Source: Methylomonas albis
Lineage (GTDB): Bacteria; Pseudomonadota; Gammaproteobacteria; Methylococcales; Methylomonadaceae
Assembly: GCF_014850955.1 (NCBI RefSeq)
Contig: NZ_JACXSS010000001.1
Span: 3,224,001-3,288,000, forward strand
Reading direction: 5' to 3'
Length of the DNA stretch: 64,000 nt
Shown here: positions 42,474-53,531 of the stretch, piece by piece
Position numbering within the stretch: the stretch's first letter is position 1
Layout: each line of letters starts with the position of its first letter
The notes under the pieces: model-generated
The model's database searches: none
What the model was told of the DNA's origin: nothing
The model's input: the letters and a program-made list of their open reading frames with translations, nothing else
Made by a program: the position numbers and the translations under genes

Positions 42474-42592
42474 GGCTACTCCTATGGTTGTAAATCGAGA
42501 CTAGAATTATAAGGCAGCTCGTTTCCGGGTTTACCCGAAAAATCGCTTTATTGTCCCAACCAGCTATCCGCTATCTTACGCAGAGCTATCGA

Positions 42593-45500
42593 ATGATAGA
42601 TACCACAAGAAAAATTCCGCTAGAAAACGCGCCGCAATTGGACAGCTATCTGCTGATCGAGAAGCTCGGCGAGAGCCTACAAGCCACGGTTTACAAGGGC
42701 TATCACAAACATGTGCCGGACTACCCGCTAGTGGTGAAATGCCTGAAATTATTATCGAGTTGGGACGACCAATCCCGGCACTTGCGGCAAAAAATCGAAC
42801 GACTGAAAGTATTGCATGACCCCAGAACCAGCACCCCATTAGCGCTAGAATCAAACGACGACGACCAGTTCCTCGTCCAAGCCTGGTTCAACGGCCAACC
42901 GCTAAACGACTGGGTTAGCCAACAACAAGCCGTGAACCTGGCCGATTTTTTTACGCTGGCCTGTTCGCTGGCCGATACCTTGCAATCGGTACATGACGCC
43001 GGCATTACCCACGGTGGTATCAAACCGCATAATATTCTGGTGCAGCCGGGTACGCTGAATCTGCGTCTGACCGACTTCATCACGCCCTTGGATATCCGCG
43101 ATATAAGCCATTTCATTTACGATGCGGAATTTGTCCGCAACACACTGGCCTATACCTCGCCGGAGCAAACCGGGCGTATCAACTACCGAGTTGATTTTTC
43201 TACCGATTTATATTCGCTGGGCATCGTTTTTTACGAACTGCTGACCGGCCGGCTGCCGTTTTTTTCACCTGATCCCTTGGAATTGATTCACTCGCATTTG
43301 GCCGAGGAAGCGGTCAAAGTCCATGACATCAGCCCCGGTATACCGCACACGCTGAGCGAAATCATCGCCAAACTGATTTTGAAGCAACCAGAAAAACGCT
43401 ATCAAAGTGCCTCCGGCTTACTGGCGGACTTGCTGCGCTGCCAGAAAGAACACGAACTTACCGGCACCGTATCCGATTTTGGCATAGGTCAACATGACCG
43501 TAGCCGCCGAGTGATTTTCATCTCGAAAATGGTCGGGCGCCAAAGTGAAACCGAGCTAATCCATCAGGAATATAGCCAGGTAACCCAAGGCCAGTTTCGT
43601 TCGGTGTTTATTTCCGGTCTGTCAGGTATCGGCAAGACCCGGCTGATTCAGGAATTGCAAAAACCGCTGGTAAAAAATCGCGGCTATTTCAGCGCCGGCA
43701 AATTCGATCAATACCAAAAAAATATACCCTACAGTTCACTGATCCAGGCACTACGCAATCTGATCCGTACCTTTCTGACCGAGAGCGATGAACAAGTGCA
43801 ACAGTGGTCCACCAAAATCATGGCAGCCGTGGATAATGCCGGTAAGGTGATTATCGATGTCGTGCCCGAGTTGGAATTCATCATAGGCCCGCAACCGGAA
43901 CCCTTACACTTGCCGCCGGTAGAAGCGCGTAACCGTTTCAACAATCTGCTCGGCCGTTTCCTTGAATGCCTGGCTAACAAAGACAATCCGCTGGTGTTAT
44001 TCATCGATGATCTGCAATGGTGCGATAGCGCCACCTTCGATTTCCTGCAAAACCTGTTCGCCAATCATCGCGAACACCCCTACCTATTGTTTATGGGCGC
44101 TTATCGTCACAACGAGGTCGACAGCGGCCATCCCTTGATCAAGCTGATCCGTAACGTGCAAGAACACACCGGCCCGCTGGCCGAGATTCATCTGACCGAG
44201 CTCAGCGACGCCGATTGCCACGAAATGGTTGCCTACATTCTGGATTCGTCTCTAAAAGCCACGGCGAATTTGGCCGACTTTATTGCGGATCTGACCGAAG
44301 GCAACCCATTGTTTGTCAGCGAAAGCTTGGCTTGGTTGTACAACGAGGGTTTACTCAGCATCGATGCCAATCAACACTGGCAATGGGATATGAACCGCAT
44401 CCGCGATACGCAAATGCCCGCCAGCGTGGTGGAGTTGTTCAGCGCCAAAGTGCGTAAACTGCCAAGCCGAACTTTGAACATTCTTTACCATTGCGCCTGC
44501 ATGGGCAACCGCTTCACCGCCGAAGATGTCGGGTTGGTGCTGGATACGCGCATCGAGCAGCTGTTTGAAGACTTGAAGCCGGTGTTAAGCATGGGGCTTT
44601 TACTGGAAAATAAAGCCGACTTGCAATTTGTGCACGACAGGGTTCAGGAGGCGGTATTGCAACAAATAGCGGCCTACACCCGTCCGAATATACATTGGCG
44701 CATCGGCAACCGCTTGTTATCGGCCGTTGCGGCTGGCACCGAACTAGCCGGCCTAGACAATTTATTCACTATCGCCGCGCATCTCAACCAGGGCTGTCCG
44801 GAGCTGCTGGATAACGAAACAGGCTATTGGCTGGTGGATATTAACTTCCACGCCGGGAATAAAGCGCTGGATGCCTTGGCCGGCGAGGCCGCCAACGAAT
44901 TTTTCCTGAAAGCTCACAACTATCTACCGACCGATTGTTGGGAAACGGCCTATGCGCTAACGTTTCGGATTTATCAACGCCTGGCCAAAACCGATCTGAT
45001 GTGCGGCCGCTACGACAGCTCGGAAGCCTTGCTGAATCGACTGATCGAGCATGCGGTCAGCGATTTGGATAAAGCCGAAGCACTGGCGGATCAGACCACT
45101 TCGCTATCCTCGTTCGGCAACTTCAAACAAGCTATCGCCACCGCCAATCGTGGTTTGGCCTACTTCAACAAATCCATTCCCGACGATCCCGAACAAGCTC
45201 GGCAGCGTATGGAAAATCTGATGTTAATGATCGAGCGGCAGGACGACGTCTGGCAAAAAATCCTGAGCATGCCGTTTACCGAGCAACGGCAAAGTAAAAT
45301 CGAACTGGCGTTTTACAGCGAACTGATCCCGGATTTATATATGTGCGGACTGGTACCGCAGCTTTATTTGTCCGCCGCCCAATCCACACTGCATTGCCTG
45401 GAAGGCGGTATGGACGAATCGGTCATTTATTCGTTTTCCATCATGGGCCTCAATCTGGGCGAACAGGGTAAATTCGACCAAGCGTTTCGATATCAGGATT

Positions 45501-47710
45501 TAGCTCACGACCTTTGCGCCAAACACCCCAACACGTTTGGCGCTACTAGAGGCATGAACGGCATCGTCTGGTGCAATATGCACTCGCGCAGCCACCCGGC
45601 CGATATTGTGGATTACGCGCATAAAGCCATTCAATCCGGCAAGAATTGCGGTGATTTATACAACGCCGGCTTGTCCTACGGCCCGCTGATGTGGAATCTG
45701 GTGGTCCAGGGTAAAAACCTGCGCTGGGTTGAGGAAGCCGCCGAGGAGTGTTTGCAATTTTCCCGCAAAAACCAGCTGTCGTTTTCGACAGGCCTGGCTC
45801 AGGCGGTGCTCGCCGGCTGGGTATTACCCATGAAACCCGAGTATCCCCCGGTCGATATGCAAGCGACCCTGGCCGACTGGCAAGCCAATAATTATGTCGC
45901 TGCTACCGGCAGTTATTTCGTATTGCTGGGTTTTGCCCAATATTACCTGGGCGACTATAGTGCGGCGGCCGTATCGTTAAAAACCGTGGAAAGTTATTTG
46001 CACGGTTTAACCGACAATGTTTTGAAGCGTCTCTGGTATGTGTTTCGAATCTTGAACCTGCTGCGCTCGGAAACGGATTACGCACAAATCGATTCCGAGA
46101 TAAAACCCTTGCTTGCTCAACTGGAAACTTGGGCACTGCTCGGCCCCTTGTTGAAGCCTTACCTGCTGTTTATCCATGCGGAAATTGCCAGGCAGCAGGG
46201 CCAGTATCGGGAAGCGCGCAATCTTTATCTGGACGCCATCGCCCTATCGTTAGCACAGAACTACGACCTGCTAACCGGCCATTTATACGAAACATTGGCC
46301 GATCTGATATATACGCACAGCCAGGGCGATGCGGAACTATATTTCGGCGAAGCTCGCCGCTATTACCGTTTGTGCCGAGCCGACGCCAAGAACAACCGGT
46401 TACAGGAGCGCCATCAATATGTCAGCCCGGAAACCGGCGCCAGAATAGCCAAAACCCAGCCGGCCCCGGCCACCCTGCCTAGCCTGGATACCAGTTATTT
46501 AATGAAATCGGCGCTGGCACTATCGGCGGAAATCGATCTGACGCAGCTGATGCAAAAGATCATGGCCGTGGTACTGGAAAGCTCCGCGGCCCAGCACGGT
46601 TATTTATTGATTAAACAAAATGACGAACTGTTGGTCGCCGCCGAGCAGCACGTCGGTAAAAAACGCACGATACACAGACACTACTACAGCCTGAGCAAGG
46701 TGCGCGGCATCTGCTACGCCATCGTCAATTACGTGCAACGCACCCACGAAAAAGTCGTGCTGCGCGATGCCTGTAGCGATGGCGCGTTTCAGAATGCCCC
46801 CGAGGTCATGGCATTCGGCTTACGCTCGGTATTGTGTTTACCGGTCATCAAGCAAAGCGAATTAATCGGTCTGTTATATCTGGAAAACCGGCTGTCGGAA
46901 GGGGTGTTCACCCCGGAAAAAATCAGTATGACCGAACTGTTGACCGCGCAAGCCGCCATTTCACTGGAAAACGCCCGCTTGTTGGAACAAACCCGGCAGG
47001 CTTATAAGCAGTTGCAAGAAAACCAGGACCACATGCTGCAAATGGAAAAACTGTCGGCACTGGGCACCCTGGTCGGCGGCGTGGCTCACGAGATCAATAA
47101 TCCGCTAATGGGGGTGATGAACTTCGTGGAATTTGTCGCGGACCGCACCGAAGACGCCAAATCCAAACAAGTGCTAGCGCAAGCTTTACAGCAAATTCAA
47201 CGTATCAAAAACATTGTTTCGAATATGCTGGTGTTCATGCATCAAAAAAACACGCAAACCGGCAGTTGCTCGATAGAGGAAGTTTTAGGCCAAACCCTAC
47301 TGTTACTGGAAGGCGAATTACGCAAATCCGCTATCGAGCTGCGCCTCGAGATACCGGCAAACTTGCCAAAACTTGCCTGCACGGCGGAAAGCATGCAACA
47401 GGTTCTGATCAATCTGTTAATCAATGCCCGCGACGCACTGCGCGGCATTCAGCAACCGGTTATTGAAATCAGCGTCAGCTCCGTGGAAAAAATGCTAGAG
47501 TTGACCATAAAAGACAACGGCCCTGGCGTCCCCGATGAAGTGCAAAGCCGCATGTTCGATCCTTTTTTCACCACCAAACCGCCCGGCCAGGGTACCGGCT
47601 TGGGTTTATCGGTCACTCGCCGTCTGATTCAGGATACCGGCGGCTCGATAGCAGTGGATAGTCGCATTGGCGAAGGCTGCTGCATACGGTTAAAATTCCC
47701 CCACTATTAA
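42593..47710 (+). CDS. Giant pseudokinase-ATPase-GAF-histidine kinase
   Basis: A 1705-residue multidomain sensor kinase. The order is: protein-kinase-like domain (about residues 15-275), AAA/STAND-type ATPase (Walker A GLSGIGKTR near 342, Walker B LVLFIDDLQWCD near 470), a long helical repeat region (about 650-1280), a GAF domain (about 1310-1460), then a histidine kinase with H-box VAHEINNPL, N-box INLLINARDAL, and G-boxes DNGPGVP and GTGLGLSV. The kinase-like domain keeps the ATP lysine (VVKCL) but has HGG in place of the catalytic HRD, and DFI in place of DFG, so it is probably a pseudokinase. It heads a three-gene operon. Confidence 0.88.
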   Translation: MIDTTRKIPLENAPQLDSYLLIEKLGESLQATVYKGYHKHVPDYPLVVKCLKLLSSWDDQSRHLRQKIERLKVLHDPRTSTPLALESNDDDQFLVQAWFNGQPLNDWVSQQQAVNLADFFTLACSLADTLQSVHDAGITHGGIKPHNILVQPGTLNLRLTDFITPLDIRDISHFIYDAEFVRNTLAYTSPEQTGRINYRVDFSTDLYSLGIVFYELLTGRLPFFSPDPLELIHSHLAEEAVKVHDISPGIPHTLSEIIAKLILKQPEKRYQSASGLLADLLRCQKEHELTGTVSDFGIGQHDRSRRVIFISKMVGRQSETELIHQEYSQVTQGQFRSVFISGLSGIGKTRLIQELQKPLVKNRGYFSAGKFDQYQKNIPYSSLIQALRNLIRTFLTESDEQVQQWSTKIMAAVDNAGKVIIDVVPELEFIIGPQPEPLHLPPVEARNRFNNLLGRFLECLANKDNPLVLFIDDLQWCDSATFDFLQNLFANHREHPYLLFMGAYRHNEVDSGHPLIKLIRNVQEHTGPLAEIHLTELSDADCHEMVAYILDSSLKATANLADFIADLTEGNPLFVSESLAWLYNEGLLSIDANQHWQWDMNRIRDTQMPASVVELFSAKVRKLPSRTLNILYHCACMGNRFTAEDVGLVLDTRIEQLFEDLKPVLSMGLLLENKADLQFVHDRVQEAVLQQIAAYTRPNIHWRIGNRLLSAVAAGTELAGLDNLFTIAAHLNQGCPELLDNETGYWLVDINFHAGNKALDALAGEAANEFFLKAHNYLPTDCWETAYALTFRIYQRLAKTDLMCGRYDSSEALLNRLIEHAVSDLDKAEALADQTTSLSSFGNFKQAIATANRGLAYFNKSIPDDPEQARQRMENLMLMIERQDDVWQKILSMPFTEQRQSKIELAFYSELIPDLYMCGLVPQLYLSAAQSTLHCLEGGMDESVIYSFSIMGLNLGEQGKFDQAFRYQDLAHDLCAKHPNTFGATRGMNGIVWCNMHSRSHPADIVDYAHKAIQSGKNCGDLYNAGLSYGPLMWNLVVQGKNLRWVEEAAEECLQFSRKNQLSFSTGLAQAVLAGWVLPMKPEYPPVDMQATLADWQANNYVAATGSYFVLLGFAQYYLGDYSAAAVSLKTVESYLHGLTDNVLKRLWYVFRILNLLRSETDYAQIDSEIKPLLAQLETWALLGPLLKPYLLFIHAEIARQQGQYREARNLYLDAIALSLAQNYDLLTGHLYETLADLIYTHSQGDAELYFGEARRYYRLCRADAKNNRLQERHQYVSPETGARIAKTQPAPATLPSLDTSYLMKSALALSAEIDLTQLMQKIMAVVLESSAAQHGYLLIKQNDELLVAAEQHVGKKRTIHRHYYSLSKVRGICYAIVNYVQRTHEKVVLRDACSDGAFQNAPEVMAFGLRSVLCLPVIKQSELIGLLYLENRLSEGVFTPEKISMTELLTAQAAISLENARLLEQTRQAYKQLQENQDHMLQMEKLSALGTLVGGVAHEINNPLMGVMNFVEFVADRTEDAKSKQVLAQALQQIQRIKNIVSNMLVFMHQKNTQTGSCSIEEVLGQTLLLLEGELRKSAIELRLEIPANLPKLACTAESMQQVLINLLINARDALRGIQQPVIEISVSSVEKMLELTIKDNGPGVPDEVQSRMFDPFFTTKPPGQGTGLGLSVTRRLIQDTGGSIAVDSRIGEGCCIRLKFPHY

Positions 47711-47737: not shown

Positions 47738-48439
47738 ATGGTAAACAACATTCTGGTGATTGACGACGATCCGGCGGTACGCGGTGCCTTCAAGCTGATT
47801 CTGGAAGAGGAAGGCTACAATGTGCGTGAAGCCGAGAATGGTCTGCAAGGTATCGCCATGGTTGAAGCTGATCGTCCCGACCTGATATTTCTGGACTTAC
47901 GCATGCCTGGCATCGATGGCGTAGAAACCTTGCGGCGTCTGAAGACACTGGACACCAGCCTGAATGTCTATATTGTCACGGCCTTTGCCGCCGAATTCAT
48001 GGATCAACTGAAAGACGCTCATGAGGAAGGCTTGCAATTCGAACTGGCCAGCAAGCCCTTATCGGCGTCGCAAATCAGAAATATCGCCCAAGTTGTGCAT
48101 ATCGCCAAAGTCCATGAAGGACGCCGTGCCAACCACCATAAGCTGGTCCTGACCTTGTATGTGGTGTCCTTAAATCCGGAAACCCGTAAACTGGTCGAAC
48201 AAATCAGCGCCGTGCTGGCCGGCATTTACGAGCCGGGCCATTGGGTATTCGATGTAGTCGAAGTATTGGGCATGCCGGAAAAAGCCCTGGAAAAAGAAAT
48301 CTTTGCCACGCCGATGCTGGTGCGCGATTTGCCGGAACCGGTGTTAAAACTGCTGGGTGATCTGTCCCGGATGTCGTCGGTGATGGCGGCAATCACTACC
48401 CAGAATGTCGGAACAGGTGTCCAGACCGTGATCGTTTGA
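47738..48439 (+). CDS. Response regulator fused to a KaiB domain
   Basis: A 233-residue protein. Residues 1-120 form a receiver domain with acidic residues D9-D11, phospho-acceptor D53 (LIFLDLRMPG), T81 and K106. Residues 134-220 match the KaiB fold: LVLTLYVVSLNPETRKLV, then EVLGMPEKALEKEIFATPML, and LPEPVLKLLGDLS, which equals the ATPTL-LP-PVR-GDLS block of cyanobacterial KaiB. It follows the giant histidine kinase after 27 bases and precedes the GGDEF-EAL gene by 21 bases, so it is likely the kinase's partner. It lacks a DNA-binding domain. No KaiA or KaiC gene is in the window. Confidence 0.88.
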   Translation: MVNNILVIDDDPAVRGAFKLILEEEGYNVREAENGLQGIAMVEADRPDLIFLDLRMPGIDGVETLRRLKTLDTSLNVYIVTAFAAEFMDQLKDAHEEGLQFELASKPLSASQIRNIAQVVHIAKVHEGRRANHHKLVLTLYVVSLNPETRKLVEQISAVLAGIYEPGHWVFDVVEVLGMPEKALEKEIFATPMLVRDLPEPVLKLLGDLSRMSSVMAAITTQNVGTGVQTVIV

Positions 48440-48460: not shown

Positions 48461-50833
48461 ATGCCGCAAACACTCAAACAACTTAATCTGATCCTCGATA
48501 CCATTACCGACGGCGTAATGGTGGTCGACCCGCAAGGCAGCGTCATTTATGCCAATCAGGCGGCGGAACAACTATTGGAGCGAGGCAGCCTGATCGGCCA
48601 TTCCTTGGCAATTCCGATTCCCGCTGACAGAATTCAATATCAAGACATCAACCTGATTCGACCCAGCGGCATAGCTTGGGCGGAAATGCGCTCCACCCCG
48701 TTGGAATGGGAAGGCTCCCCGGCCTACGTGATTGGGCTACGGGACATCACTGCCCGTAAGCAAGCGGAAATAGCCCTGCAGGAGAGCGAATTACTCTTCC
48801 ATACGCTATCTAAAATTGCCCCGGTCGGTATTTTTCGCACCAACGAAAAAGGCGAATGCGACTACGTCAATCATCGCTGGTGCGAAATCACCGGCTTACA
48901 TTTTAGTGACTCGCACGGTGCTGGCTGGATAGCCGGTTTGTTTGCCGAAGACCGCGAAGCCATCATTGCCGAATGGCAGCGCTGCGTATCCGCCTTGCAG
49001 CCCTTCAATATGCAATACCGGTTTCAACTTGCGGACGGCAGTGTGCGCTGGGTGGTGGGCCGCGCCGAGCCGGAACTGGATGAAGCGGGCGAATTGTGCG
49101 GTTACGTTGGCACTATCACCGATATTTCCGACATCAAAGCCAACGAGGAGCGCTTGGGACAAGCCGCCGCCGTATTCGAAAGCACGCGCGAAGGCGTGAT
49201 GATTACCGATGCCCGGCGTCGGATTACGATGGTCAACAAGGCGTTTACCGATATTACCGGCTACGACAATCAGGATGTGCTCGGCAAAAGTCCCGGCGTC
49301 ATGAGTTCCGGGCGCCATAACACCGATTTTTATCGGGAAATGTGGGCCAATATTGCCATGACAGACCATTGGCAAGGCGAAATTTGGAATCGTCGCAAAT
49401 GCGGGGAAGTGTATCCGGAATTATTAAGCATCAGCACCGTGCGCGACGGCAATGGAGAGATTAGCCATTATGTGGGCGTATTTGCGGACATTTCCAAGCT
49501 CAAGGCTTCGGAAATGGAGCTGGAGTTCCTGGCCCACCACGATCCGCTGACCAAGTTGCCCAACCGCATGCTGTTCCTGTCGCGTCTGCAACATAATATT
49601 GAGAAAGCCCGCCGCCAAGCCAACAAGATGGCGGTGCTGATGCTGGATTTAGACCGTTTTAAGGACGTTAATGATAGTTTCGGCCATTTGGCCGGCGACG
49701 ACTTACTGCAAATGGTGGCCGAGCGCCTGACCAGCCGGCTGCGTACCAGTGACACCATTTGCCGACTGGGCGGCGACGAATTCGTGATATTGCTGGAGGA
49801 AGTCAACCAATCCGAAACCGTGGCACATGTTGCCACGCAAATCATCCATGCCTTGAACCAAACTTGGCGACTACCCAGCGGTCATGAGGTACGCATCGGC
49901 GTCAGCGTCGGCATCGCGATGTTTCCCGAACACGGCGCCTCACCGGACGAGTTGATCCAGCAAGCCGATACTGCCTTGTATCAAGCCAAAAACGAAGGCC
50001 GCAATCGCTTTAAATATTTCTCGGAAGACCTGACCCGCGCGGCCCGAGAACGCATCGATATCGAAATCCGTCTGCGGCAAGCAATCGAGCAAGGCGAATT
50101 GCGGGTGTTTTTTCAACCGCAATTTTGCATCGATAACGGCACCATAGTCGGCGCCGAAGCCCTGGTAAGATGGCAGACAGCCAGTGGAGAACTTATATCG
50201 CCGATTCGTTTCATTCCCATTGCCGAGGAAACCGGTCTGATTACCACGATTGGCAATTGGGTATTAAAAGAAACTTGTCGCCACGGCCAGCGCTGGCGCA
50301 AGGCGGGTTTTCCGCCCTTACGCTTGGCGGTCAATTTATCCCCGCAACAGTTTTTACATAGTGACATTAGCGATGTGGTCGCCAGAATTCTGAATGAAAC
50401 CGGTTTTCCAGCCGAATATCTGGAACTTGAACTCACGGAAAGCGCATTAATGAAGCGTGAAAAAGAAGCCATCGAAATTTTGCATAAACTCCATGCCTTG
50501 GGTGTGCATCTGGCCATCGATGATTTTGGCACGGGCTATTCGTCACTGGCCTATTTAAAACTATTTCCGCTGGACGTCTTAAAAATCGATAAGAGCTTCA
50601 TTGAGGACATTCCGAAACACACCGACGATATGGAAATCACCGCTACGATCATTGCCATGGCAAAAACACTACGCATGCGGGTGGTTGCGGAAGGCGTGGA
50701 AACCGCCGAGCAACTGGCTTTTCTGAAAAGCCGGCAATGCGATCTGTACCAGGGGTTTTTGACCAGCAAACCGCTACCGGTAGCGGAATTTGAAAAATTT
50801 CTGACCGATTACCTGCCGGACTGCAGTTTATGA
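48461..50833 (+). CDS. PAS-GGDEF-EAL cyclic-di-GMP signalling protein
   Basis: A 790-residue cytoplasmic protein: three PAS domains (about residues 5-105, 115-235 and 240-355), then GGDEF (about 360-520) and EAL (about 540-785). The GGDEF motif is intact (CRLGGDEFVILL), and the product-inhibition site RTSD sits five residues before it. The EAL domain keeps EALVRW, LELTESALM, AIDDFGTGYSSLAYL, KIDKSF and EGVETAEQ, so both cyclase and phosphodiesterase activities look possible. The operon with the histidine kinase and the REC-KaiB protein suggests that c-di-GMP is the output. Confidence 0.92.
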   Translation: MPQTLKQLNLILDTITDGVMVVDPQGSVIYANQAAEQLLERGSLIGHSLAIPIPADRIQYQDINLIRPSGIAWAEMRSTPLEWEGSPAYVIGLRDITARKQAEIALQESELLFHTLSKIAPVGIFRTNEKGECDYVNHRWCEITGLHFSDSHGAGWIAGLFAEDREAIIAEWQRCVSALQPFNMQYRFQLADGSVRWVVGRAEPELDEAGELCGYVGTITDISDIKANEERLGQAAAVFESTREGVMITDARRRITMVNKAFTDITGYDNQDVLGKSPGVMSSGRHNTDFYREMWANIAMTDHWQGEIWNRRKCGEVYPELLSISTVRDGNGEISHYVGVFADISKLKASEMELEFLAHHDPLTKLPNRMLFLSRLQHNIEKARRQANKMAVLMLDLDRFKDVNDSFGHLAGDDLLQMVAERLTSRLRTSDTICRLGGDEFVILLEEVNQSETVAHVATQIIHALNQTWRLPSGHEVRIGVSVGIAMFPEHGASPDELIQQADTALYQAKNEGRNRFKYFSEDLTRAARERIDIEIRLRQAIEQGELRVFFQPQFCIDNGTIVGAEALVRWQTASGELISPIRFIPIAEETGLITTIGNWVLKETCRHGQRWRKAGFPPLRLAVNLSPQQFLHSDISDVVARILNETGFPAEYLELELTESALMKREKEAIEILHKLHALGVHLAIDDFGTGYSSLAYLKLFPLDVLKIDKSFIEDIPKHTDDMEITATIIAMAKTLRMRVVAEGVETAEQLAFLKSRQCDLYQGFLTSKPLPVAEFEKFLTDYLPDCSL

Positions 50834-51713: not shown

Positions 51714-53531
51714 CTAAAACGGAATTCTCGCTCCCAACTCAATAGTATGGTCGGTAATATAGGCCTGCCCCAAGCGGTATTCGTATCGCAAAAAGCCCGC
51801 CCGACCTTCCGGCAAACTCAACGCCAACGATGTACCGATATTGAAATAGTCACGATCCGGCGTGTCGGTTTTTACGCTGAAACGACCGGTGCCGGCCGCC
51901 GCTTGACTAAAGCGCGCCTGGATCAAACGGCTTTCGTCCAGGTATTGATGCACCCATTCGAAGCGCACGCCGGGCGACAATACTCCCCAAGAAGTACTAA
52001 TCGCATTACTGGCTTGACCACCGATAGTCGATGTCGCTGAATCGATAGACTGACCGGCAAACTCCATCGCTAAGCCGCCGCCACCGCTTTCCCGATAGCT
52101 ATCGACTTTGGTTTTGCTGTAATCCAGTCTTAGATACGGATTGATCACAAAACTTTGTAGCGCAAAATCTTTACCAAAGCCCAAACTAAACCCGTATTGG
52201 TCGCCATGGGCGGCACTCGTGGCCGTGTTGTCGAAACCGGTGTATTGGATGCGCCGATTGATGTCGAAGGAATGCAGCGCATAGCTCATTATCCAGTCGA
52301 TATAAAATGATTGCGGCAAGAAATAACTGCCATAAGAAGAAAATTCGAAGGCGTCGGCCGACATGCTGCCGCTATTGAGATTGTAATTGGTATCGGTGGA
52401 GCCATAACCGAAAGCCGCTCCCAACACCAACTCGTCCATAACGCTGTAATCAAGACCGAAAGTAACGGCCTTTCTATCGGCTTTAAACCCCCGTTCGCTA
52501 CCGGTATTGGCTTTTTCGCCGACATTGAATTGACCTTTCAGAAAGAAACCCAACGGACTATCCCGGAATAGCTGGTCGTTTGGATCATCGCCTGCTGCGC
52601 CGCCGCGTGCCGGACCCAATGCCGTCATCAAAGCCTTGCCGACCGGTATGGTTTCACCATTGATATTGATGGTGGAATAGCCGAGCAACGACGAGCTTTG
52701 CTGTTGGGAGTTGCGCAGATTAACGATACGGCCATGAATCACGGAAAATTGCTTAAAGCCAAAATCCACGGCCGCCGAGCCTTGCGCGGCAACCGCATCG
52801 GGAATCACCGCGTTCAAGTCGGCGTTGTTTATTTCGTTGCATCGGTTCAATAAATCGCCGCTCGCTCCGGAGCAAGCACTGGTTAAACCTTCGTAAATTG
52901 ATTGCTGATTGGGAGTAAAGGTCGGATCGGCAGTTAAGTTGGGTGTCGAGGGTGTCGAGGTTGTCGGCGTTGTGGGTGTCGTTTGCGTGGTGGAGGCAGA
53001 AGCAACGTCATTGTCCACTATCGTGACGACCGCTTGAGCCCCGGCGCCAGGGACGGCTCCCGGTAAACACAATTCGGAGGAGTTTTGAATCGACAAATTT
53101 ATCGTTTCGGCACTTTCGACCAGTGTATCGTCGATAATATTGATAACTACCGATTGCGTTTGAGAGCTACCATTCTGGACGTCAAATGTGACTCGCCCGC
53201 CGGATAGGTTGTAGTCACTCCCGGAGCTGGCACTACCGCCGCTAGCAACCACATCCCCTTCGATAATACAGCTGCCGCCATAACCACTATTCATTTCAAC
53301 AATCACCTGCAAGTTACCACCGGCTTCGTTCACACTATACGTGCTCGGAATGAATGCTAAAGTCGACGCATCTACCGCAAACGGCTTAAGCGACAGAACA
53401 GCCGCCGCCGCCAGCAACACCGCCTTGGAAGTGAACACACGGTGGCGAATGATCCGGTTTGAACGTTTCGGAAATACTTCGATGCCGCAAAAACATGCCG
53501 CGTTTTCGGGATGTGTTAGAGGTAATATCAT
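51714..53531 (-). CDS. Calx-beta autotransporter
   Basis: A 605-residue surface protein. A signal-like segment (about residues 35-55) follows a 30-residue extension. A Calx-beta domain comes next (about 57-178; STYSVNEAGGNLQVIVEMN, DDTLVESAETINLSI), then a Thr/Pro linker (TTQTTPTTPTTSTPSTP), a helical part, and a C-terminal autotransporter beta-barrel (about 330-605) with GLDYSVMDELVLGAAFGYGSTD and the final ELGARIPF. Calx-beta domains bind calcium and are common in adhesins, so a role in attachment is plausible. It stands alone on the minus strand. Confidence 0.85.
   Translation of the reverse strand: MILPLTHPENAACFCGIEVFPKRSNRIIRHRVFTSKAVLLAAAAVLSLKPFAVDASTLAFIPSTYSVNEAGGNLQVIVEMNSGYGGSCIIEGDVVASGGSASSGSDYNLSGGRVTFDVQNGSSQTQSVVINIIDDTLVESAETINLSIQNSSELCLPGAVPGAGAQAVVTIVDNDVASASTTQTTPTTPTTSTPSTPNLTADPTFTPNQQSIYEGLTSACSGASGDLLNRCNEINNADLNAVIPDAVAAQGSAAVDFGFKQFSVIHGRIVNLRNSQQQSSSLLGYSTININGETIPVGKALMTALGPARGGAAGDDPNDQLFRDSPLGFFLKGQFNVGEKANTGSERGFKADRKAVTFGLDYSVMDELVLGAAFGYGSTDTNYNLNSGSMSADAFEFSSYGSYFLPQSFYIDWIMSYALHSFDINRRIQYTGFDNTATSAAHGDQYGFSLGFGKDFALQSFVINPYLRLDYSKTKVDSYRESGGGGLAMEFAGQSIDSATSTIGGQASNAISTSWGVLSPGVRFEWVHQYLDESRLIQARFSQAAAGTGRFSVKTDTPDRDYFNIGTSLALSLPEGRAGFLRYEYRLGQAYITDHTIELGARIPF

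Follow-up and report, generated by a model that had tools for sequence, protein, structure and literature searches.

A receiver domain fused to a KaiB domain, encoded between a histidine kinase and a protein that opens with a particular PAS domain, was found in methanotrophs and other bacteria, most of which have no match to KaiC. In Methylomonas albis the fusion, REC-KaiB, is a response regulator of 233 residues, recognized by its Pfam domains and by alignment of homologues and encoded at positions 47,738 to 48,439 on the forward strand of the window; the window is the whole stretch of DNA analysed, 64,000 nucleotides from the forward strand of NZ_JACXSS010000001.1 (positions 3,224,001-3,288,000; assembly GCF_014850955.1). 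The genes for the kinase, for REC-KaiB and for the PAS-GGDEF-EAL protein that follows very probably serve a single pathway, to judge from their sequences and arrangement. As a full explanation we lean, by a modest preference, towards REC-KaiB being the central piece of a KaiC-independent module that leads from histidine kinase through REC-KaiB to a PAS-bearing output protein.

To our knowledge, KaiB is known almost only as the partner of KaiC. Here, complete genomes that lack KaiC keep the domain under strong selection, where it forms the output of a phosphorylatable receiver, and the same gene set recurs in unfused form in another phylum. This suggests that a protein famous for switching its fold in the clock also acts simply as a coupler controlled by phosphorylation. 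The module offers a small, cultivable system for studying roles of KaiB besides the clock and the wiring of non-cyanobacterial Kai genes, for which a link from KaiB through PAS to cyclic di-GMP or phosphorelay output is a concrete candidate.

A receiver and a KaiB domain in one protein

The receiver occupies residues 3-118 (47,744-48,091, forward strand), as delimited by Pfam, alignments and a profile for its subfamily. The Pfam Response_reg model matches residues 5-115 with an E-value of 2e-25, and the set D9, D10, D53, T81 and K106 is complete and kept in the aligned fused homologues, so that the acidic pair, the phospho-acceptor aspartate (codon at 47,894-47,896), the Thr/Ser and the lysine are all present. 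The complete receiver with D53 that had been read from the sequence beforehand is thereby borne out. It belongs to a distinct subfamily seen beside KaiB, whose profile scores 205 bits here and 68 bits for the next best of the 99 receiver matches in the same genome. The profile gives 133-188 bits in the split and non-proteobacterial loci described below and at most 60 for all other receivers near kaiB. The subfamily is rare, with a single match, that in the M. albis genome itself, among 398 Pseudomonadota genomes drawn evenly.

The KaiB domain spans residues 134-221 (48,137-48,400, forward strand). Pfam KaiB (PF07689) matches residues 160-212 with an E-value of 3e-8 and 33.6 bits, where the gathering score is 27, and a phmmer search of the PDB with residues 130-233 finds cyanobacterial KaiB at an E-value of 5e-10, aligned over residues 136-219. 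The NCBIfam equivalog circ_KaiB (score required 145 bits) is not among the 25 best models for REC-KaiB, the 25th of which scores 46 bits. In the full-length AlphaFold model the KaiB half reaches a pLDDT of just 51-73 and the Foldseek list is filled with receivers; the domain was therefore predicted alone, with a wider alignment, which gives a pLDDT of 87. The top structural match in the PDB is fold-switched KaiB (5jwr_D; Z 12.6, 2.0 Å over 87 residues), and the further best matches are Legionella KaiB (4kun), the SasA N-domain (1t4y, Z 11.2) and KaiB-TV4 (8ubh). The preliminary description had located a KaiB block in the C-terminal half and proposed structure prediction as its check; the Pfam score above cut-off, the PDB match and the KaiB/thioredoxin-like fold predicted for residues 134-221 all agree with it. 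A chance match to a short KaiB motif is ruled out by the same three lines of evidence together with the purifying selection described below.

A single state was predicted, and the model should be read as giving the family and the fold class rather than the resting fold, given that AlphaFold yields the fold-switched form even where the ground state is the resting state of a KaiB (PMC10808063); for the same reason, the absence of ground-state KaiB entries from the structural match lists is uninformative. Residues at four KaiB positions were compared between 28 fused proteins and 65 KaiBs linked to kaiC. The place of K58, E187 in M. albis (48,296-48,298), holds Asp or Glu in 28/28 fused proteins and Lys, Arg or Gln in 59/65 of the others; that of R74 holds Leu throughout the fused set, compared with Arg or Lys in 54/65. 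The places of G89 and D91 fall within A218-I219-T220 (48,389-48,397): the former is Ala, Thr or Ser in every fused protein and Gly in 52/65 kaiC-linked KaiBs, the latter Thr or Ser in every fused protein and Asp or Glu in 48/65. Clock KaiB that carries both G89A and D91R is mostly in the fold-switched state (PMC8059507), and the residues found at 89 and 91 suggest that the fused KaiB likewise favors that state. The alignment and the model also delimit a C-terminal tail (48,401-48,436, forward strand) with a hydrophobic end of the (Q)TVIV type, common to most fused proteins and modeled as an extra strand. KaiBs of plasmids bear a weak likeness to the fused KaiB, with at most 50% identity.

Conservation of the flanking genes

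Upstream of REC-KaiB lies the gene for a 1719-residue protein (42,551-47,710, forward strand) that combines a Ser/Thr kinase or pseudokinase domain with AAA16, TPR and GAF regions and a histidine kinase, assigned by Pfam, motifs and phylogeny; its HisKA box reads HEINNP and its kinase core covers about 47,024-47,707. The Ser/Thr kinase domain has HGGIKPHN in place of HRDxKPxN and DFI in place of DFG, without the catalytic Asp and Gly, and looks like a pseudokinase, as do the homologues examined. The downstream gene (48,461-50,833, forward strand) encodes three PAS domains followed by GGDEF and EAL domains, identified by Pfam and motifs, with the GGDEF, EAL and DDFGTG motifs intact. Its first PAS domain, PAS1 (48,461-48,775, forward strand), is of a subtype defined by its own profile and by gene order; the profile scores this protein at 184 bits and no other stretch of the window above about 2. 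No terminator-like sites were found in the two short gaps around REC-KaiB. Past the downstream end of the operon, the opposite strand encodes an autotransporter (51,714-53,531) that has a Calx-beta domain as well as a linker rich in Thr and Pro.

Among 84,980 species genomes scanned, 36 fused loci were found (L084-L119), plus one, L143, in Lentisphaerota. The hosts include Methylomonas, Methylobacter, Methylocaldum, Methylomicrobium, Crenothrix and metagenome-assembled genomes (MAGs) of Gallionellales and Comamonadaceae. Co-occurrence with the flanking genes, which the preliminary description had named as a check, is nearly constant: a histidine kinase lies upstream in 33 of the 35 testable loci (exceptions L103 and L116), and the single PAS subtype opens the downstream protein in 33 as well (exceptions L096 and L119), with gaps mostly below 120 bases. 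The remainder of the downstream protein varies, being GGDEF-EAL in 23 loci, a histidine kinase with or without a receiver in 8 and truncated in 2; the kinase replaces the GGDEF-EAL half in Methylobacter and relatives. The sensory halves of the upstream kinases differ too, with Ser/Thr kinase-AAA-GAF in methanotrophs, CHASE3 in a Comamonadaceae MAG and ETR1_N-PAS in a split gene set; in the last (L066:3897-6212), the ethylene-receptor-like ETR1_N (E 6e-38) stands ahead of the PAS domains.

The kinase cores, the receivers and the KaiB domains form a clade each. In quick SH-aLRT trees the module-linked kinase cores group with a support of 99, and the KaiB tree, calculated from 94 columns, unites 29 fused copies, two split copies from Methylomonas and two from Accumulibacter with a support of 95. 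Two Methylomonas genomes (G020 and G035; loci L069 and L070) have lost the kinase and retain REC-KaiB as a remnant open reading frame of about 100 residues that keeps both of its ends (e.g. L070:6900-7200), with the PAS-GGDEF-EAL gene intact. Since that gene is kept where REC-KaiB has decayed, the output protein can do without the coupler.

A candidate partner and a proposed mechanism

The earlier proposal, in which KaiB is the output of a phosphorylatable regulator that does without KaiC and has links to the kinase and the GGDEF-EAL protein on either side, is well supported by phylogeny and by synteny across genera, and the partner that KaiB binds is where the proposal has to be refined. The neighbouring kinase or GGDEF-EAL protein had been suggested; the comparison points to the PAS subtype that opens the downstream protein, as the GGDEF-EAL half and the kinase sensory half are both swapped elsewhere. 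Of 37 other kai loci, 28 also have PAS1-type domains, loci of other phyla among them, and 32 of 36 such copies within the loci lie no more than 4 kb from kaiB, compared with 20.5 expected if they were evenly placed (p 4e-5). PAS1 is proposed as the target of the KaiB domain because of this recurrence and because everything in the module is exchanged except for the kinase core, the receiver, KaiB and PAS1 itself; the assignment is tentative, with a chance that we put a little short of even.

The KaiB domain is probably a phosphorylation-gated interaction domain, a reading drawn from sequence comparison. Given the linkage and the parallel trees, the upstream histidine kinase would phosphorylate the receiver at D53. 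In that state the receiver would free or re-orient the KaiB domain, which may be mainly in the thioredoxin-like, fold-switched form, and the freed domain would dock on PAS1 of the next-encoded protein. Docking would set the output, which in M. albis would be cyclic di-GMP turnover via GGDEF-EAL and in Methylobacter and relatives a second phosphorelay. A bolder version, in which phosphorylation of D53 switches KaiB between its ground and fold-switched folds, so that the output of this two-component system would be a fold switch made without KaiC, and in which KaiB bound PAS domains before and apart from any role in the clock, seems to us improbable.

Alternatively, the KaiB domain could act back on the upstream kinase, at its DHp or sensory part and in trans in the manner of SasA, or could oligomerize the regulator, with the PAS protein controlled in some other way. 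The kinase accompanies REC-KaiB as regularly as the PAS protein does, and there is a precedent, which also bears on the proposed release of KaiB by the receiver: through beta2, KaiB in its fold-switched form pairs with a receiver-like domain, the pseudo-receiver of CikA (PMC6378743). Against this, the sensory halves of the kinase are swapped freely where PAS1 stays, and PAS1-type domains accompany kaiB even where a receiver of this subfamily is absent, so that this arrangement is considered unlikely, if the most serious competitor to docking on PAS1.

Occurrence without KaiC

The M. albis genome is complete (5.4 Mb in two contigs) and its single KaiB domain is that of REC-KaiB. A search of the whole genome with a KaiC query finds no match at an E-value of 1e-6, which extends to the genome the earlier remark that no KaiC was in sight; matches to PF06745 were rejected as KaiC, given that the protein query finds nothing there. 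REC-KaiB is present in 24 of 37 Methylomonas genomes and KaiC in 5, all among those 24, and the remaining 19, complete genomes included, have REC-KaiB without KaiC (18 of the 30 genomes that are at least 95% complete). The association of the two in Methylomonas is not significant (Fisher p 0.14), though some link to KaiC may exist. Outside Methylomonas, a KaiC match occurs in 6 of 22 fused genomes, some of the 22 being incomplete MAGs. As most Methylomonas and most other genomes with the fusion lack a KaiC match, REC-KaiB does not depend on KaiC. It has been stated that bacterial KaiB occurs only alongside full-length KaiC (PMC5520375), and this does not hold for these genomes.

These data also bear on whether REC-KaiB is a clock accessory, whose KaiB domain binds the CI ring of KaiC, or competes with KaiB there, under the control of receiver phosphorylation. 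The predicted fold does match KaiC-bound KaiB and the SasA N-domain, the nearest unfused relatives sit in kaiBC clusters of Accumulibacter, and KaiC does occur beside the fusion in five Methylomonas and in 6 of 22 other fused genomes. Such a role is nonetheless improbable, given the KaiC-free majority, the replacement of K58 and R74 in all 28 fused proteins, and the separate kaiB that adjoins kaiC in the Methylomonas kaiC loci read. That the KaiB half is a functionless relic of a lost clock beside a receiver that works alone, for example as a phosphate sink, is very improbable: kaiC is absent and REC-KaiB is decaying in two Methylomonas, but dN of the KaiB half is 0.01-0.15 and no higher than that of the receiver in nearly all pairs, which with synonymous sites saturated marks a kept domain, and the fusion is retained across genera and classes with invariant residues of its own.

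Unfused relatives and origin

Two Accumulibacter loci (L120 and L122) have the order HK-REC-KaiB'-PAS-PAS-KaiB-KaiC, followed by more PAS proteins, and in receiver, KaiB' and kinase core they fall together with the fused module. In Methylomonas, G009 and G029 (locus L121) carry a further, split set composed of a kinase, a receiver, a fusion of the N-terminal half of KaiB with a receiver, a complete KaiB and a PAS-GGDEF-EAL protein; locus L066 reads HK-REC-REC-KaiB-PAS-GGDEF-EAL. At L066:6597-7103 and L121:7483-7989, in two Methylomonas species, the receiver follows only the N-terminal, beta1-alpha1-beta2 half of KaiB, whose fold stays constant in the switch, with the complete KaiB adjoining.

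In Lentisphaerota, L143 has the order HK, REC-KaiB, PAS protein, and another genome of that phylum (L185) has HK-REC-REC-KaiB-PAS-HK, with no match to a KaiC query in the L185 genome. The L143 receiver falls in the subfamily (162 bits) and its KaiB lies outside the fused clade; therefore, fusion of receiver and KaiB may have happened twice. The module would have originated from an HK-REC-KaiB'-PAS set like that which precedes kaiBC in Accumulibacter, by fusion of the receiver with KaiB'; kaiC is usually absent from the fused genomes.

Comparison with known Kai systems

The KaiBs of KaiABC clocks (Synechococcus elongatus, T. elongatus, Rhodobacter sphaeroides) share with REC-KaiB the Pfam family and the predicted fold-switched topology of 5JWR and 5JWO. 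In REC-KaiB, however, the domain lies behind a receiver in a genome without KaiC, K58 and R74 are replaced, residue 89 is not Gly and residue 91 is Thr or Ser. The elongated KaiBs of cyanobacteria, or KaiB-4, are of like size (about 230-250 residues) and are extended N-terminal to KaiB, and KaiB-4 prefers the fold-switched state (PMC5520375, PMC10808063). Their extension of about 150 residues has no recognized homology and they live with KaiC, whereas the extension of REC-KaiB is a canonical receiver; this separation follows the published description, and a receiver may be hidden in the N-terminus of elongated KaiB.

SasA also couples a KaiB-like thioredoxin fold to a two-component protein, but there the domain is part of the kinase and binds KaiC, whereas here it sits on the response regulator and the kinase is a separate gene. 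With CikA, a receiver fold likewise works with fold-switched KaiB, although there it is a pseudo-receiver acting in trans within the KaiC clock, whereas REC-KaiB has a genuine, phosphorylatable one in cis. KaiA3 of Synechocystis (Sll0485, PMC11372060) fuses a receiver to a Kai-type module, but that module is KaiA-like and its partners are KaiB3 and KaiC3, whereas the C-terminal half of REC-KaiB is KaiB. A description of a receiver-KaiB fusion was not found in a literature search that covered few subscription journals, and an earlier mention is possible.

GGDEF-EAL genes also occur next to kaiC. At five gammaproteobacterial loci, including those of Methylomonas and Methylobacter (L081, L082, L083, L140 and L156), a GGDEF-EAL gene directly follows kaiC and kaiB, in either order of the two, suggesting that cyclic di-GMP may be an output of KaiC.
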